Positions 1 to 6,297 of a stretch of 6,318 bases of DNA are shown here, piece by piece (position 1 is the stretch's first letter; every line of letters begins with the position of its first letter). The DNA comes from an uncultured Archangium sp. GTDB lineage: Bacteria; Myxococcota; Myxococcia; Myxococcales; Myxococcaceae. Location: contig CAMLFP010000330.1 of assembly GCA_946479335.1 (NCBI GenBank), forward strand, positions 1 through 6,318, read 5' to 3'. Below the pieces are notes generated by a model. It did not search any database. It worked only from the letters and a program-made list of their open reading frames with translations, and was not told the DNA's origin. The position numbers and the translations under genes were made by a program.

Positions 1-1326
1 GAGGGGCGCGTGGTGTCGTTCCATTCACCGGAGCCGTTGCGTACCGACGAAGCGCTGCGGCGCTGGGCATCGCTGCCGCCGGAGACGCAGCTCAAGCACG
101 TCGAGCCGCTTGGCGCGCCGGCGCGCTTCCCGGAGGTCCTCGAGACGCAGCGCGCGCTGCAGCAGCGCTTCGGCGCGGAGCGGGTGACGGTGTTGGTGAC
201 GGGCGTGACGGCGCTGCCGTTTCGCGCGGTGTTGGCGCAGCGCAACGCGCTCGACTACCTGGCGCTCGACGCGACGTGGGCCGCCGCACCGGGGCAGCGG
301 TTGTTGGCGGACGCGGTCCGCGAAGCGAGAGGCGCGCGCGTCGACGGCTCGAGGAAGCGCCTGGGCATTCTCGGTTCGAGCCTGAGCCACTCGCGCAGCC
401 CGCGCCTTCACGCGCAGCCGTTCGACCGCATCGACTGGCCGCCCGACGCGCCGCTGGCGGAGTTGCTCGATGCGCTCGCGCCGCACTACCGGGGCTTCGC
501 GGTGACGAACCCGTTCAAGAAAGCGGTCGCCGCGTACGCGGGCGCGACGCTGAGTGCGGTGAACACGCTGGTTCGCGGACAGGTCGCTGCCCCTCCGGTG
601 GCAGGGGGCTCCGAGAACGCCGACGTGCACGGCGCGATGACAGGGAAGCCCGGGCCTGCGTTTGTGGCGCGCCACACGTCGCGCGCGGACAGCACGAACC
701 CGGAAGAAGCACGCTCGACGGGCACGAAGTCGGTCGACAGTCATGCACCTGCGACCGTGACCCGTGAGACGTCGCGCGTGGATGGCGCCAACATGGAAGC
801 CGCTCGCGCGACTGTCGCGTTCGACGGTGAGGCGCATGCGAGCGTCACGAGTGAGTCGTCACGCGTGGATGGCACCAGGTTGGAAGACGCGCGCTCGACG
901 GGCACGAAGTCGGTTGTCGGTGCCGTAACGCGCGAGCCGTGGCGCGCGGAGAACACCGACATCGCCGGCGCGCGCGCGGTGTTGGAGAAACTCGGCGCGA
1001 CCTCGCTCACCGTGCTGGGCGACGGCGGCGTGACGGTCGCGCTGCGTGAAGCCGCGGGAGACCGCACGTTGAACGTCATCACGCGCGCCAAGGTTGGCGC
1101 CGAGCCGCTTACCGGCGCGGTGGTGTGGACCTGGCCTGCGTCGGTGGAGGCGCCAGAAGCGCTCCGCTTTCACGACGCGCGCGTGGCGGTCGTCGCCTAC
1201 GGCGCTCCGGCTCGAAAAATCGCGGCCGTCATTCGCGCGCGCGGCGGCCAGCCGGTGATGCTCGGCGCGCGGTGGTTCATCGCGCAGGCGCGGCGACAGA
1301 AAACACTCTGGGAGTCAGCATCATGA
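1..1326 (+). CDS. aroDE: Bifunctional type I 3-dehydroquinase / shikimate dehydrogenase (AroD-AroE fusion), 5' end outside window
   Basis: The protein dehydrates 3-dehydroquinate and then reduces 3-dehydroshikimate to shikimate with NADPH, which are steps 3 and 4 of the cytosolic chorismate pathway. Residues are numbered from the GTG at base 10. The frame is open to base 1, and residues 1-105 match only the C-terminal half of type I dehydroquinase: His5 in VSFH (E. coli His143), Schiff-base Lys29 in LKHVEP (Lys170), Arg72 and the AAAPGQ motif at 91-96. The true start therefore lies upstream, with perhaps 140 residues missing. The GTG at base 10 is not the start. Shikimate dehydrogenase begins near residue 117: SHSRSP at 126-131, VTNPFK with catalytic Lys170, VNTL at 184-187, NTD with Asp317, a GxGGxxxA nucleotide loop at 337-344, and C-terminal similarity near 419-435. 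About 116 extra repeat-built residues separate VNTL from NTD. The stop TGA overlaps the aroC start as ATGA. Such fusions are known in plants and Chlamydia. Identification is firm; activity with the insert is not proven. Confidence 0.9.
   Translation, partial: EGRVVSFHSPEPLRTDEALRRWASLPPETQLKHVEPLGAPARFPEVLETQRALQQRFGAERVTVLVTGVTALPFRAVLAQRNALDYLALDATWAAAPGQRLLADAVREARGARVDGSRKRLGILGSSLSHSRSPRLHAQPFDRIDWPPDAPLAELLDALAPHYRGFAVTNPFKKAVAAYAGATLSAVNTLVRGQVAAPPVAGGSENADVHGAMTGKPGPAFVARHTSRADSTNPEEARSTGTKSVDSHAPATVTRETSRVDGANMEAARATVAFDGEAHASVTSESSRVDGTRLEDARSTGTKSVVGAVTREPWRAENTDIAGARAVLEKLGATSLTVLGDGGVTVALREAAGDRTLNVITRAKVGAEPLTGAVVWTWPASVEAPEALRFHDARVAVVAYGAPARKIAAVIRARGGQPVMLGARWFIAQARRQKTLWESAS
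589..975 (+). repeat. Degenerate in-frame tandem repeats inserted in the shikimate dehydrogenase domain
   Basis: Four units align by eye in the reading frame: bases 664-753, 754-840, 841-921, and 922-975, where the last runs into normal enzyme sequence. A weaker unit may lie at 589-663. The shared pattern is roughly xVTRExSRVDGTNxExAR. Examples are VTRETSRVDGANMEAAR, VTSESSRVDGTRLEDAR and VTREPWRAENTDIAGAR, the last being the genuine catalytic NTD segment. A 23-base stretch at 712-734 recurs exactly at 892-914, 180 bases (60 codons) away, and 12 bases at 775-786 recur at 862-873. The extra residues are rich in Ser, Thr, Arg, Asp, Glu and Ala, with no hydrophobic core, so a solvent-exposed disordered loop is likely. 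In bases 664-921, 20 of 86 codons end in A or T, against 12 of the first 80 aroC codons, a small difference. The origin is either tandem duplication or a dispersed protein-coding repeat. Confidence 0.8.
1311..1314 (+). promoter_or_regulatory. Ribosome binding site for aroC
   Basis: GGAG lies eight bases before the aroC ATG, inside the last codons of aroDE. It supports the ATG at 1323 over the longer reading that extends upstream through the dehydrogenase gene. Confidence 0.7.
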
Positions 1327-2360
1327 ACACCATCGGCGAACTCTTTCGCGTCACGACGTTCGGCGAGAGCCACGGGCCCGCGATGGGCGCGGTCATCGAC
1401 GGCTGTCCTGCGGGTGTGCCGCTCACCATCGAACAGCTTCAAGCCGCGCTCGATCGCCGCCGCCCCGGCCAGTCCACGGTCACCACCGCGCGTGCAGAGG
1501 CGGACCGCGTGGAAATCCTCTCCGGCGTGTACGAGGGCAAGACGCTGGGCACGCCCATCGCGTGCGTGGTGCGCAACACCGACCAGCGCAGTCAAGACTA
1601 CGAGAAGCTCAAGACCGTCGACCGCCCTGGGCACGCCGACAAGGTGTGGCGCGAGCGCTTTCACCACCGCGACCCGCGCGGCGGCGGGCGTACCAGCGGC
1701 CGCGAGACGCTCTGTCGCGTCATCGGAGGCGCCGTCGCCGAAGCGCTGCTGCTCCGTGAGTTGCCGAAGGTGCGCACCGTGGGCTGGGTCTCGCAGGTGG
1801 GCCCGCTGATGCTCCCGGTGCCCGACGCAGACGTCACGCGCGCGCTGGTCGACCGCACCTCCGTGCGCTGCCCTGACGTGGGCCTCGCCGCGAAGATGGA
1901 GGCGCTCATTCTCGACGCGAAGCAGACCGGCGACAGCTGGGGCGGCGCCATCACCGTGCGCGTCGACGGGCTGCCCATCGGCCTCGGTGAGCCGGTGTTT
2001 GGAAAACTGAAAGCGCAGCTCGCGCACGCCGTCACCGGCATCGGCGCGGTCACCGGCATCGTGTGGGGCCCGGAAGATCTCGAGTCTCGCCTGCGAGAGC
2101 CGGGCACGCGCTTTCACGCCCCGCGCGCCGACGGGCGCCCGAGCGACGTGTACGGCGGCATTCAGGGTGGGCTGTCGAATGGAGAGCCCATCGTGCTGCG
2201 CGTGCTCTTCAAACCGCCGGCGACGCTGACCGACCATGCGAAGGCTGGGCGCCACGACCCGTGCATCCTCCCGCGCGCGGTGCCGGTGGTGGAGGCGATG
2301 GTGTCGTGCGTGCTGGCCGACCTCTGGTTGCACACGCTGGCGAGGCCGCACCGCGCATGA
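1323..2360 (+). CDS. aroC: Chorismate synthase
   Basis: This cytosolic enzyme removes phosphate from 5-enolpyruvylshikimate-3-phosphate to give chorismate, the last step of the common aromatic pathway, and uses reduced FMN as cofactor. At 345 residues it is near the family's usual length of about 360. The N-terminal signature GESHGPAMGAVIDGCPAG (14-31) contains conserved His17. RPGHAD at 101-106 holds the second active-site His104. GGGRTSGRET at 120-129 and YGGIQGGLSNGEP at 277-289 are the family glycine loops, and GRHDPCILPRAVPVVEAM (309-326) is the C-terminal signature with Asp312. Small departures from E. coli-type sequence include RDPR for RDYR (116-119) and AVTG for AVKG (242-245). The ATG was chosen because MNTIGELFRVTTFGESHG is the standard N-terminus and it has a GGAG site. 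ATGA overlaps with both neighbours suggest translational coupling within the operon. Confidence 0.96.
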   Translation: MNTIGELFRVTTFGESHGPAMGAVIDGCPAGVPLTIEQLQAALDRRRPGQSTVTTARAEADRVEILSGVYEGKTLGTPIACVVRNTDQRSQDYEKLKTVDRPGHADKVWRERFHHRDPRGGGRTSGRETLCRVIGGAVAEALLLRELPKVRTVGWVSQVGPLMLPVPDADVTRALVDRTSVRCPDVGLAAKMEALILDAKQTGDSWGGAITVRVDGLPIGLGEPVFGKLKAQLAHAVTGIGAVTGIVWGPEDLESRLREPGTRFHAPRADGRPSDVYGGIQGGLSNGEPIVLRVLFKPPATLTDHAKAGRHDPCILPRAVPVVEAMVSCVLADLWLHTLARPHRA

Positions 2361-3337
2361 CGCCCGGCAGCTACGTGAAGTGTCGTGATGTGTCGGGCCG
2401 CTTCGACGAACTCGCGGCTCGCCTCGAAGGCCCGGCGTTGGCCATCGCGGATGCGCGCGTGTTGAAGCTGCATCCGCACGTCGGAAAAGCGCTGCGTGCG
2501 CGGGGTGTCACCGTGTTGGCGGTGCGCGCCGGCGAGGCCGCGAAGTCGCTGCGCGTGTTGGAACGTCTCACGCGCGACGCGGTGTCGTTGCCACGGTCGC
2601 TGACGCTGCTGGCCATCGGCGGAGGCACCATCGGCGATCTCGCCACCGTCTTCGCGCACACCTTCAAGCGCGGCGTGAAGCGCTTCATCCAGGTGCCGAC
2701 GACGCTGCTCGCGGCGGTGGATTCCAGCGTCGGCGGGAAGGGCGCGGTCAACGTCGCGGGCGCGAAGAACGTGCTGGGCGTGTTCCACGCGGCCGACGAA
2801 GCGTGGCTGTGCGCGGAGTTGTTCGAGACGCTCTCGGAGTCGCAGCGCCGCGAAGGCCGCATCGAGGCGTGGAAGATGGTGGTGACGCTCGACGCGCGCA
2901 CCTTCGCGAAGTGGAGCCGCGTCACGCCTACTGATGCCGAAATCATCCGCGTCTCTCGCGCGCTCAAGCACGGCGTCGTGCAGCGCGACCCGTACGAGAC
3001 GAAGGGCCTGCGCGTGGTGTTGAACTTCGGGCACACCCTGGGCCACGTCATCGAGGCGCTCTCGAAGTACCGCGTGCGGCACGGCGAGGCGGTCGGGCTG
3101 GGCATGCTGTTCGCGCTCGATGAAGGCGTGCGCCGCGGCGTGACTCCGCGCGACGTCGCGGACGCCGTCGAGCGCGCGCTGCCGCTGCCGAAGAACGCGC
3201 GCGCGTCACTGGAGAAGTGGACCGCGCCGCGCTTCGCGAAAGACACGCTGCGCCTGCTCGCCGCCGACAAGAAGGCCGGGTGGATTCTCCTCGAGCGCCC
3301 GGGGAAGTGGCGCTTCGTGCCCGCGGAGCATCGATGA
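2357..3337 (+). CDS. aroB: 3-dehydroquinate synthase, short form
   Basis: The enzyme converts DAHP to 3-dehydroquinate, the second step of the pathway, using NAD and a divalent metal such as zinc. In order, the sequence shows AGEAAKS (58-64), the NAD-binding GGGTIGD (88-94), PTTLLAAVDSSVGGK (114-128), metal ligand Glu170 with Lys173 (ExxK), Lys204, Arg219, NFGHTLGH (223-230) with His226 and His230, RHGEAVGLGM with His242, and the late DKK at 304-306. The spacing of Arg219, Asn223, His226, His230 and His242 matches the fungal Arg264/Asn268/His271/His275/His287 set. At 326 residues it is shorter than E. coli AroB (about 360), with roughly 25 residues missing before the GEAAKS motif. The ATG at 2357 overlaps the aroC stop as ATGA, and a weak GAGG lies at 2342-2345. 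An earlier start would run backwards through aroC and is not supported. Confidence 0.94.
   Translation: MTPGSYVKCRDVSGRFDELAARLEGPALAIADARVLKLHPHVGKALRARGVTVLAVRAGEAAKSLRVLERLTRDAVSLPRSLTLLAIGGGTIGDLATVFAHTFKRGVKRFIQVPTTLLAAVDSSVGGKGAVNVAGAKNVLGVFHAADEAWLCAELFETLSESQRREGRIEAWKMVVTLDARTFAKWSRVTPTDAEIIRVSRALKHGVVQRDPYETKGLRVVLNFGHTLGHVIEALSKYRVRHGEAVGLGMLFALDEGVRRGVTPRDVADAVERALPLPKNARASLEKWTAPRFAKDTLRLLAADKKAGWILLERPGKWRFVPAEHR
3325..3328 (+). promoter_or_regulatory. Ribosome binding site for the upstream aroA start
   Basis: GGAG lies five bases before the ATG at 3334, within the final codons of aroB. It supports initiation at the ATGA overlap, although a second candidate site (GAGGG, 3385-3389) precedes the alternative starts TTG 3394 and GTG 3397. 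Confidence 0.55.
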
Positions 3338-4524
3338 GCACGCGCCCCTCACCCCTCGCTTCGCGAGACCCTCTCCCCGCGGGAGAGGGAAGGTTGGTGC
3401 CGCCGATTTCAAAGTCTGACGCGCAGCGCGCGCTGGTGCTGGCCGACATCCTCGGCGTGCCGTTCGACACGATTCTCCCGGCGGGCGAAGCGCTGCCGCG
3501 TGACATCGTCGTGTTGCGCGAGGGCCTCGAGAAGCTGCGCCACGCAGAAGCGCAGCTCGACTGCCGTGACGGCGGCGCGCCGTTTCGTTTCCTGCTCGGT
3601 CAGGCCGCGGTGCTCCCGCATCGCCGCGTGGAGTTCACCGGCACGCCGCGTCTCGGCGCGCGCCCGCACGAGCCGTTGCTGGAGTCGCTGCGGAGTGCGC
3701 TGGGCATCTCCATCACCGGTACGCCGTGGCCGGTGCGCGTCGAGACGCACGAGCTGGTGCGCGGCGCGCGCTTCACAGTGACGGGCGCGGAGAGCAGCCA
3801 GTTCGCTTCCAGTCTCCTCCTCGCCGCGGCGCGGCTCTCGATGCTCACCGGCGACGCCGTCGAGGTGCGCGTCGAAGGGCCACTCGTCAGCGAAGGGTAT
3901 TTCGCGCTGACGCGGTCGTGGCTCACGCGCTGCGGTTTTTCGATGAACCCGGTGCGCGCGCCCAAGACACCGCCCGCGTTCCCGCAGGTGCCCGGAGACT
4001 GGTCGTCGCTCGGCTACCTGCTCGCGCTCTCGTGGGTCAGCGGGCGCGACGTCGCGCGCATGCAGCGCCACAGCGGCCACCCCGACGAGGCCATCGTCAC
4101 GCATCTGGAGCACGTAGGCCTGCGCGTCACCACGAAGCTGGAAGGCGAAGCGCAGCGCGGCTTCGACGTCGACGCCACCACCTGCCCCGACGCGGTGCCG
4201 ACGATGGCGGTACTGGCGACGAAGCTCCCGCAGCCGTCGGTGTTCCGGAACCTCGGCATCCTCCGCCACAAGGAGAGCGACCGAGCGCAGGGCATCGTCA
4301 CGCTGCTCTCGACTGCGGGGCTGACCGCGCGCATCGACGGCGAGACGCTCACCGTCACGCCCGGCGCCGCGCGCGACTTTTCGTTCGACCCGCTCGATGA
4401 CCACCGGCTCGCGATGTCGGCCGCGGTGCTCTCGCGGTTGCACGGGGTGCGCGTCGAGCTGACGAATCGCGAGTGTGTCGCCAAGAGCTTCCCCGGCTTC
4501 TGGGCCGAGTTCGCGAAGCGATAG
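3334..4524 (+). CDS. aroA: 3-phosphoshikimate 1-carboxyvinyltransferase (EPSP synthase)
   Basis: The enzyme transfers the enolpyruvyl group of phosphoenolpyruvate to shikimate-3-phosphate, the sixth pathway step. Its product is the substrate of AroC, encoded in the same operon. Read from ATG 3334 it has 396 residues, against about 430 in most family members. Visible motifs are KSDAQR (27-32), the GTPRLGARP substrate loop (103-111), SSQF (154-157), GDWSSLGY (221-228), CPDAVPTMAVLA (284-295), LRHKESDR (310-317), DHRLAMS (356-362) and CVAKSFPGF (381-389). The loop that is NAGTAMRP in E. coli reads DGGAPFRF here (79-86), keeping the Arg and the second Gly. Residues 5-20 are the translation of a palindromic element, not enolpyruvyl-transferase sequence. 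The real start may be GTG 3397 or TTG 3394. ATG 3334 is reported because it repeats the ATGA overlap seen at the previous two junctions and has a GGAG site. Function is secure; the start is not. Confidence 0.93.
   Translation: MSTRPSPLASRDPLPAGEGRLVPPISKSDAQRALVLADILGVPFDTILPAGEALPRDIVVLREGLEKLRHAEAQLDCRDGGAPFRFLLGQAAVLPHRRVEFTGTPRLGARPHEPLLESLRSALGISITGTPWPVRVETHELVRGARFTVTGAESSQFASSLLLAAARLSMLTGDAVEVRVEGPLVSEGYFALTRSWLTRCGFSMNPVRAPKTPPAFPQVPGDWSSLGYLLALSWVSGRDVARMQRHSGHPDEAIVTHLEHVGLRVTTKLEGEAQRGFDVDATTCPDAVPTMAVLATKLPQPSVFRNLGILRHKESDRAQGIVTLLSTAGLTARIDGETLTVTPGAARDFSFDPLDDHRLAMSAAVLSRLHGVRVELTNRECVAKSFPGFWAEFAKR
3355..3389. repeat. Double-hairpin palindromic element at the start of aroA
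   Basis: Two adjacent perfect inverted repeats are visible. CTCGC (3355-3359) pairs with GCGAG (3363-3367) around TTC, and CCCTCTCCC (3369-3377) pairs with GGGAGAGGG (3381-3389) around CGC. The stretch CCCCTCACCCCTCG just before them and the CCCTCTCC...GGAGAGGG arm resemble the short G+C-rich repeats found between genes in many proteobacterial and related genomes. Read in the aroA frame it gives SPLASRDPLPAGEG, typical of such elements when translated. Only one full copy is visible here, so its status as a dispersed repeat is inferred from resemblance. There is no T-run after the hairpins, so it is not a classical terminator. Confidence 0.65.
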
Positions 4525-4564: not shown

Positions 4565-5842
4565 ATGTTCTACCGGTTGTTTCGCGCCTTCGCGTCGTTC
4601 AACCTCAACTCGTTCTTCCGCGTGGAGAAGCCCGTCGACCCGCACGGTGGCCTCTCACTCGACGGGCCCGTGATGTACGTCGGCAACCACCCGAACGCGC
4701 TCATCGACCCCGGGCTCATCTTCGTCTTGAGCAAGCGGCAGGTGACGTTCCTCGCCAAGGAGCCGCTCTTCCGCTTCCCCGTGCTGGGGCAGGTGTTGCG
4801 CGGCGTGGGCGCGTTGCCGGTGTACCGGAAGCAAGACGGCGCAGACACGTCGAAGAACGAGGGCACGCTGACCGCGGCGACGCAGGCGCTGGTCGACGGC
4901 CGCGCCATCACCATCTTCCCCGAGGGCAAGTCGACGAAGGACCCGCACATCATCGAGCTCAAGACCGGCGCCGCCCGCATCGCGCTCGCCGCGAAGGAGA
5001 AGGGCGTGACGCCGAAGATTGTGCCGGTCGGCATGACGTACGCGGCGCGCAACCGTTTCCGCTCCAAGGTGCACATCGAGATCGGCGAGCCCTTCGAGGC
5101 AACGGGCGAGGTGCGGGAGTTGACCGCGAACATCGACGCGGCGCTGCGCAAGGTGACGCTGAACCTCGAGGCCTGGGAAGACCTCCCGCTCATCAAGACG
5201 GCCGACCAGTTGCTCGCGCTGCAGACCGGCAACCGCGCGGGCGACCCGGAGCGCCTCAAGCGCTTCGCGCGCGGCATGCAGTTGCTGCGCGCCGAACAAC
5301 CCGAGCGCTTCGAGCGGGTGAAGACCACGCTGACGCACTTTCAGCAGCAGCTCTCGTTGCTCGCCATCTCGGCCGATGACCTCACCTCGCGCTACCGCCC
5401 GGCGACGGTGGCGCTGTTCGTCATCCGCAACCTGCTGTGGATGCTGTCGCTCCCGCTGGTGGCGCTGGGGTTCGCGCTCTACGCCATCCCCTTCATGCTC
5501 ACGCGGCTCGCCGCGAAGCTGACGAAGGTGGAGTGGGACATTCAAGGCACCATCAAGTTCCTCACCGCGATGGTGTTGGCGCCCATCTGGTGGGCGTTGC
5601 TGACATTCCTCTCCTGGCGCTTCTTCGGAGCGATCGCCGCCGCGGTGACGTTCATCTTCGCCATTCCCCTCGCGCTCTTCACCCGCGTCTTCTACGAGCG
5701 GCGGCTCACCGCGCTGCGCGACGCGCGCACCTTCTTCGTGCTGGGCAGCCGCAAGCGCATGCAGCGGCAGTTGCTCGACGAGAGCCGCGAGCTGGCCACG
5801 AAGATTGAAGCGCTGGCCGAAGAGCTCCGCCCGAGGCTGTGA
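4565..5842 (+). CDS. PlsC-family glycerophospholipid acyltransferase with C-terminal membrane domain
   Basis: It probably transfers an acyl chain to glycerol-3-phosphate, lysophosphatidate or a related acceptor at the inner membrane. Of 425 residues, about 35-205 form the acyltransferase fold. The catalytic His42 and Asp48 lie in NHPNALIDP, with five residues between them rather than the four of classical PlsC, a spacing also seen in Sct1/Gpt2-type enzymes. GALPVYR (82-88) is the block II region, FPEGKS (118-123) the phosphate-binding block and IVPVGMTY (152-159) the fourth block. Residues 205-280 look helical and soluble. Hydrophobic stretches near 281-313, 332-350 and 353-375 make a membrane region, followed by a charged tail that may form a helix or coiled coil. 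ATG 4565 is preferred: a start at GTG 4475 would overlap aroA by 50 bases and add an Arg/Ser-rich segment unlike the family. Exact substrate is unknown, and the link to aromatic synthesis appears to be positional only. Confidence 0.85.
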   Translation: MFYRLFRAFASFNLNSFFRVEKPVDPHGGLSLDGPVMYVGNHPNALIDPGLIFVLSKRQVTFLAKEPLFRFPVLGQVLRGVGALPVYRKQDGADTSKNEGTLTAATQALVDGRAITIFPEGKSTKDPHIIELKTGAARIALAAKEKGVTPKIVPVGMTYAARNRFRSKVHIEIGEPFEATGEVRELTANIDAALRKVTLNLEAWEDLPLIKTADQLLALQTGNRAGDPERLKRFARGMQLLRAEQPERFERVKTTLTHFQQQLSLLAISADDLTSRYRPATVALFVIRNLLWMLSLPLVALGFALYAIPFMLTRLAAKLTKVEWDIQGTIKFLTAMVLAPIWWALLTFLSWRFFGAIAAAVTFIFAIPLALFTRVFYERRLTALRDARTFFVLGSRKRMQRQLLDESRELATKIEALAEELRPRL

Positions 5843-6297
5843 TGCGCGAGCTGCCGAGGCTCTCCAGCGCCAGCACCTTCTTCTTCAAGCGCGTGTTCCC
5901 CGCGTTCTGGTTCGGCTTCCTCACGCTGGTGGGGGCGCTCATCGCCACGCAGAAGCCCATCGCCGTGCTGCACCCGCTGGCGATGATGCTCTTCGGGTAC
6001 TTCCTCTTTCGTCACCTGGTGTGGGACCTCGCCGACGAGGTGCGCGACGGCGGCTCGTTCCTCCTCGTGCGCAACGGCGGGCTCGAGCAGCGCGTGGAGC
6101 TGCGCCAGGTGATGAACGTCGGCTCCTCGCAGTTCACCAACCCGCGCCGCATCACGCTGAAGCTGCGGACGCCAGGCGCGCTGGGCGATGAAGTCGTGTT
6201 CATGCCGACGGCGCGCGTGCGCTTCAACCCGTTCGCGCAGCACCCGTTGGTCGACGAGCTCATCGCGCGCGTCGACGCCGCGCGGCGCGCTGTCTGA
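5842..6297 (+). CDS. Small two-helix membrane protein with a beta-rich C-terminal domain, function unknown
   Basis: I do not recognise a named family. The 151-residue protein has a short basic N-terminus, two adjacent hydrophobic segments (about 19-37 and 41-60) with a short turn between them, and then a soluble part from about 65 to 145. That part alternates strand-like stretches such as SFLLVRNG, QRVELRQVMNVG, ITLKLRT and VVFMPTA and ends in a helix. Two helices followed by this strand pattern resemble bacterial PH-like membrane proteins, but this is only a resemblance. Start ATG 5842 shares its A with the acyltransferase TGA and has GAGG five bases upstream (5833-5836). GTG 5839 is possible but sits too close to that site. 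The coupling implies co-expression with the acyltransferase and perhaps a shared envelope or lipid role. The stop is TGA at 6295-6297. Confidence 0.8.
   Translation: MRELPRLSSASTFFFKRVFPAFWFGFLTLVGALIATQKPIAVLHPLAMMLFGYFLFRHLVWDLADEVRDGGSFLLVRNGGLEQRVELRQVMNVGSSQFTNPRRITLKLRTPGALGDEVVFMPTARVRFNPFAQHPLVDELIARVDAARRAV

Follow-up and report, generated by a model that had tools for sequence, protein, structure and literature searches.

Bacterial intragenic tandem repeats (minisatellites) consist of in-frame copies arranged head to tail, and their lengths vary among close relatives. The palindromic elements of Rickettsia are in-frame insertions into protein-coding genes. Here, we analyzed a stretch of 6,318 nucleotides (nt) of an uncultured Archangium sp. 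(contig CAMLFP010000330.1; this whole stretch is called the window), which begins within a fusion gene containing shikimate dehydrogenase (SDH), and in which a long insert lies between the VNTL and NTD motifs of the SDH. Compared with the AroE-type SDHs (E. coli AroE, 1nyt; P. putida AroE, 4omu), the window protein has 117 more residues, mostly predicted to be disordered, at the turn of the VNTL-NTD hairpin. Relatives of the window protein have kinase, dehydroquinase and SDH in one chain, in the same order as the SK-DHQase-DHSD (shikimate kinase, dehydroquinase, SDH) part of the fungal AROM/Aro1 (7tbv, 7u5s). Unlike in AROM/Aro1, 3-dehydroquinate (DHQ) synthase and 5-enolpyruvylshikimate-3-phosphate (EPSP) synthase are encoded by separate downstream genes in the window, and the hairpin turn is short in Aro1 (10 residues in Candida Aro1, from the alignment). 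The insert is like the minisatellites in its head-to-tail, in-frame copies and in the length differences among close relatives, but the repeat appears to have been seeded by the enzyme's own catalytic segment, lies in a core metabolic enzyme and is highly degenerate. It is like the Rickettsia elements in its in-frame position within a coding gene, but it has no dispersed copies beyond the control in the relatives' genomes, and its units match a native segment. The apparently self-copied SDH loop thus varies on a type of event that is already known. A literature search named no SDH with such a loop, and the search was too limited to show that none is in print.

The insert is made up of degenerate tandem copies, all in frame, of the neighbouring segment with the catalytic Asp; three copies are clear and one is weak. 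This origin goes beyond the preliminary description of the DNA, which had pointed out the extra residues. The features of this region are listed below, with identities counted against the native 54 nt. Residue numbers refer to the 441-residue frame of the window and are higher by 3 than those of the preliminary description.

517..519, + strand: Lys173 of NPFKK, the catalytic Lys of the SDH dyad by alignment; meets K1334 of Candida Aro1 (7tbv, 7u5s)
559..570, + strand: VNTL motif, strand 1 of the hairpin (residues 187-190; strand 76-79 of the model)
571..951, + strand: 127-residue loop from VNTL to NTD (9-12 residues in 153 of 156 relatives)
589..663, + strand: copy u0, weak; SENADVHGA against native AENTDIAGA; 31/54 bases
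664..756, + strand: copy u1, VARHTSRADSTNPEEARSTGTKSVDSHAPAT; 35/54 bases; family D1 of the repeat finder
757..843, + strand: copy u2, VTRETSRVDGANMEAARATVAFDGEAHAS; 38/54 bases; detected by the repeat finder
844..924, + strand: copy u3, VTSESSRVDGTRLEDARSTGTKSVVGA; 35/54 bases; detected by the repeat finder
925..978, + strand: native copy u4, VTREPWRAENTDIAGARA; strand 2 of the hairpin, NTD and the first part of the helix after it
958..960, + strand: Asp320 of NTD, the catalytic Asp by alignment; meets D1370 of Candida Aro1

The native segment encodes the strand WRAENTD, the catalytic Asp and the following helix; NTD corresponds to residues 318-320 (nt 952-960). The native 54 nt were slid ungapped along the insert, and codon shuffles of the insert served as the null. 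The four best placements on the + strand outside the segment itself were all in frame and all within the insert. None of 1000 codon shuffles reached 38/54 (mean 27.2, standard deviation 1.5), and the best + strand placement elsewhere in the window was 30/54. At the protein level, the score of the native segment was reached by 14 of 5000 shuffles. An independent repeat finder returned three copies of 87 nt, and u1, u2 and u3 share 36-42 of 54 bases among themselves. Successive copies are spaced by 75, 93, 87 and 81 nt, all of which are whole codons. Thus, as in an intragenic tandem repeat, adjacent in-frame copies are present beyond chance. The copy at 925, which runs directly into the Rossmann domain, retains the Trp, the NTD and the helix that follows, whereas the motif has been lost from u1-u3. 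The lag identity peaked at 180 nt (0.464), exceeding the maximum of 500 shuffles (0.427), and bases 892-914 in u3 are the same as bases 712-734 in u1, i.e., 23 identical bases 180 nt apart. Therefore, two units were probably copied together as a block in at least one later event.

The extra length itself, as pointed out in the preliminary description, is real. Among the relatives, the VNTL-NTD gap is 10 residues in 150 of 156 proteins (148 parsed, and P0054 and P0072 read by eye). The other six include one each with 9, 11 and 12 residues, and only P0005 (21), P0002 (38) and P0001 (72) exceed 12. The excess over the relatives is 117 residues; the value of about 116 given previously refers to E. 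coli AroE. The span 574..951 captured the loop, but its start was one codon late, as the loop begins at nt 571. In a second set of 39 loci from public genomes, of which 37 were parsed (L032 and L037 were not), the gap is 10 in 36 loci and 11 in one, and none has an insert. Among the 96 genomes of the G003 family, 88 had a match, and in the four that were inspected with both pieces listed (G002, G003, G004 and G013), the pieces are 0-9 nt apart.

The SDH piece was modelled with AlphaFold2 as 328 residues, in which the insert is 80-195. Residues 102-181, which lie between the two hairpin strands, had a predicted local distance difference test (pLDDT) score under 50 and no secondary structure, and therefore most of the insert is predicted to be disordered. 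The enzyme body scored mostly 94-98, with 74-86 for the first 30 residues. The loop is bordered by strands 76-79 and 201-204, and helix 207-218 follows. In the model of P0001, which has a different insert, only 476-519 were under pLDDT 50, also without secondary structure. Hydrophobic residues make up 15% of the window insert as compared with 29% of the remainder of the SDH, and its G+C content at third codon positions is 0.767, versus 0.911 and 0.835 in the flanks, indicating a relaxed codon composition. The insert alone had no Pfam match. The open frame alone is weak evidence, since a stop was likewise absent from 369 of 5000 versions of the insert with shuffled bases.

Shorter extra segments are present at the same hairpin in the closest relatives, namely 11 residues in P0005, 28 in P0002 and 62 in P0001, and none in P0003 and P0004. 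In a tree of 25 rows, from which the loops of the four insert bearers were removed, the window protein, P0001, P0002 and P0005 grouped with P0003 and P0004 (83/67), and the latter two formed a supported pair (99/99). The insert bearers need one change on this tree, which is compatible with one origin of the inserts. The possibility raised earlier, that the insert is specific to one strain, is borne out by P0003 and P0004 to the extent that these close relatives lack it. However, P0001, P0002 and P0005 carry shorter inserts, and therefore the insert looks like a feature of the lineage rather than of a single strain. No genome of the P0003 group or of the insert-bearing group was found in an order-wide search with P0003 (145 genomes; best identity 66%), nor among the matches listed in a family-level genome search.

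The inserts themselves differ strongly in sequence. The window protein and P0001 are identical at 173 of 203 positions (85%) around the loop, yet their inserts are unalignable, as the local score was no better than that of shuffles (937 of 3000 as high) and the global score exceeded them only slightly (230 of 3000). Common ancestry of these two inserts was not detectable by sequence. The inserts of the window and P0002 scored no better (1127 of 3000 shuffles as high). P0002 has a possible decayed copy of the native segment, RAERRDVEG against RAENTDLDG, whose score was reached by 35 of 3000 shuffles.

With the in-frame repeats, the intact native copy and the length differences among the closest relatives in hand, we consider that the insert arose by in-frame tandem copying of the native segment and is a product of duplication that evolves fast and is tolerated in a hairpin at the surface, with a probability of roughly 0.75. 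The native segment (nt 925-978) would have been duplicated in tandem several times in whole-codon steps, and slippage or unequal recombination may have been the route. The last copy, which is joined to the Rossmann domain, would have retained the catalytic Asp along with the native fold, and the upstream copies would have lost the motif and become a disordered loop at the hairpin turn. The copies would drift fast, and the turn would tolerate in-frame tandem duplications; the length of the loop may be tolerated because the loop leaves the enzyme body.

Several observations weigh against this explanation or narrow it. The lag identity at 87 nt, the second highest (0.416), is within the shuffled range, and no array was reported for the insert by Tandem Repeats Finder at score 30. 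The sequence had already been read when the 54-nt test segment was picked, although lengths of 45-87 gave the same result. Copy u0 is weak, because 31/54 is hardly over the background of 30/54 and it shares only 21-25 of 54 bases with u1-u3. As a firm fourth copy it was therefore weakened, and its support consists of the peptide SENADVHGA and a shorter match picked by the repeat finder (24/32 bases, 605-636 against 941-972; 0 of 20000 codon shuffles). The inserts of P0001 (1475 of 3000 shuffles as high) and P0005 (1663 of 3000) had no recognisable copies of the native segment. Duplication is thus shown in the window, has weak support in P0002, and is not shown in P0001 and P0005, and the support for a single origin of the inserts is only 66/51. 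In addition, the alignments used as input for the models already put the last copy on the NTD columns, so the models are no test of which copy is used.

A stronger proposal is that the hairpin is a live, self-seeding minisatellite, in which one myxobacterial lineage keeps re-copying the catalytic-Asp segment in frame, older copies lose their sequence, and each species comes to have its own disordered tether of 11-117 residues beside the active site. We regard this as possible but doubtful.

The window protein has the two-domain SDH fold as in the AroE family. The Lys and Asp columns of the dyad were invariant in an alignment of 78 rows (K60 and D207 of the model piece). In PMC9074039, the catalytic dyad is a Lys and D1370, and the Lys is given as K1134 once and as K1334 elsewhere; our alignment agrees with K1334. 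The window protein scored below the family cut-offs, which are thresholds and not biochemical features (PF08501, 24.3 bits with a cut-off of 27; NF001311, 39.8 with a cut-off of 235). The insert-free P0003 also fell short (25.1 and 54.5, respectively), and therefore the low scores come mostly from divergence of the whole group. The PF08501 cut-off was passed by hits in 10 relatives' genomes, in six of them only with neighbouring pieces.

These data bear on whether the gene is decaying as a dispensable copy, with another SDH serving the cell. An insert of 117 residues next to the active site is unusual, as only three of the 156 relatives have more than 12 residues at this position. However, the SDH parts flanking the loop are 75-93% identical to those of P0001-P0005, the Lys and Asp of the dyad are retained, and the frame has no stop. 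Moreover, the fused SDH was the only PF08501 match at E ≤ 0.001 in 10 of the 10 relatives' genomes searched, so the fusion gene is, judging from these genomes, probably the cell's sole SDH. Decay is therefore extremely unlikely. The proposal of a tolerated, exposed loop in the preliminary description agrees with this result and with the low-pLDDT loop outside a well-predicted body. The enzyme would catalyse the usual SDH reaction, the NADPH-dependent reduction of 3-dehydroshikimate, and the loop would be largely neutral.

The gene context of the loop is as follows.

1..1326, + strand: 3' portion of a fusion gene for shikimate kinase, type I dehydroquinase and SDH; open reading frame with the 5' end outside the window
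1323..2360, + strand: aroC, chorismate synthase (PF01264, 7.5e-107); ATGA overlap with the fusion gene
2357..3337, + strand: aroB, DHQ synthase (PF01761, PF24621); ATGA overlap
3334..4524, + strand: aroA, EPSP synthase (PF00275); ATGA overlap

The frame of nt 1-1326 (+ strand, 5' open) crosses the insert without a stop and gives 441 residues, with the SDH portion beginning at about residue 114. The kinase part was seen in the relatives, and is presumed for the window gene. P0001 (658 residues) matches the window protein with 66% identity over 100% of the query, and the host of the fusion gene is a Myxococcaceae-like bacterium. The order of the fusion gene, aroC, aroB and aroA with ATGA overlaps (1-4524) recalls the fungal AROM chain divided among bacterial genes. 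Downstream are a gene with an acyltransferase domain (PF01553; 4562-5842) and a small gene with no Pfam match (5839-6297), and in tblastn searches of the 39 public-genome loci neither was matched at E ≤ 1e-10. At gathering scores, no RNA element of Rfam matched the window.

Alternatively, the loop may be under selection, serving as a disordered tether or as a docking site either for the enzymes encoded by the overlapping aro operon, its partners, or for a regulator of SDH. The fusion and the overlapping aroC-aroB-aroA suggest coordinated enzymes, the frame is retained in all four insert-bearing genes, and the composition of the insert (23% charged and 79% disorder-promoting residues) would suit such a segment. 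The inserts of P0001 and P0002 also have a common stretch, with a score reached by 62 of 3000 shuffles. Against this, the window insert aligns locally with those of P0001 and P0002 no better than shuffled sequences do, despite the nearly identical flanks in P0001, and the differences between units are spread across the codon positions (e.g., 9, 5 and 8 over 87 nt of u2/u3). We consider selection on the loop unlikely. The regulatory or partner-binding role proposed previously was not supported, since the window and P0001 inserts are so dissimilar, and from these comparisons a function beyond tolerance, although conceivable, is unsupported.

A dispersed protein-coding repeat or mobile element may instead have landed in the hairpin turn, in the manner of the Rickettsia palindromic elements, with its likeness to the native segment being secondary. 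This group of bacteria carries small dispersed palindromes of the CCCTCTCCC-GGGAGAGGG type, one of which is in aroA (3369-3389), and the best match of the insert DNA in the relatives had an E value of 1.1e-5 (31 nt), as compared with 1.0e-4 for the reversed control. However, the only CCCTCTCCC and GGGAGAGGG arms in the window lie in aroA, and the insert units match the adjoining native segment. At E ≤ 0.01, the insert DNA had matches in 35 of 92 family genomes and its reversed letters in 34 of 92, and the matches listed were short pieces; at most seven first-look candidates per genome were scored in this search, and the 35 were tallied by hand among the matches listed. At the looser E ≤ 0.1, the insert DNA matched 83 of 92 genomes, with the reversed control run at 0.01 only. 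No match of the insert DNA was found in plasmids or phages, and the insert protein had nothing at E ≤ 10 among 1349 candidates of the protein database. A mobile or dispersed element was rejected as a candidate, as nothing was clearly beyond chance in the relatives' genomes, plasmids, phages and protein database searched, and we regard this origin as very unlikely.

The palindrome in aroA, CCCTCTCCC-CGC-GGGAGAGGG, is inside the start of the gene and is translated as PLPAGEGR. Of eight relatives' genomes, five contained its pattern in the forward direction, with 216, 156, 116, 53 and 6 matches, and three lacked it; the backward control gave 0-1. A GEGR/AGEG-like string occurs in 11 of the 156 fusion-protein relatives: within a dehydroquinase loop in P0001, P0003, P0004 and P0145, and near the dehydroquinase-SDH junction in P0080, P0135 and P0146; the other four may be chance. 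P0035 (700 residues) and P0045 (672 residues) have long low-complexity inserts in the dehydroquinase part, near the GEGR-peptide loop of P0001 and P0004.

Tandem copying of the native segment with tolerance of the product thus remains our preferred explanation of the SDH insert. It offers a plausible way for a conserved core enzyme to gain a long disordered loop: the catalytic segment of the enzyme is copied in tandem, and the copy joined to the downstream domain stays functional. Because close relatives form a series with 0, 11, 28, 62 and 117 extra residues, the tolerance of the AroE hairpin can be tested directly.
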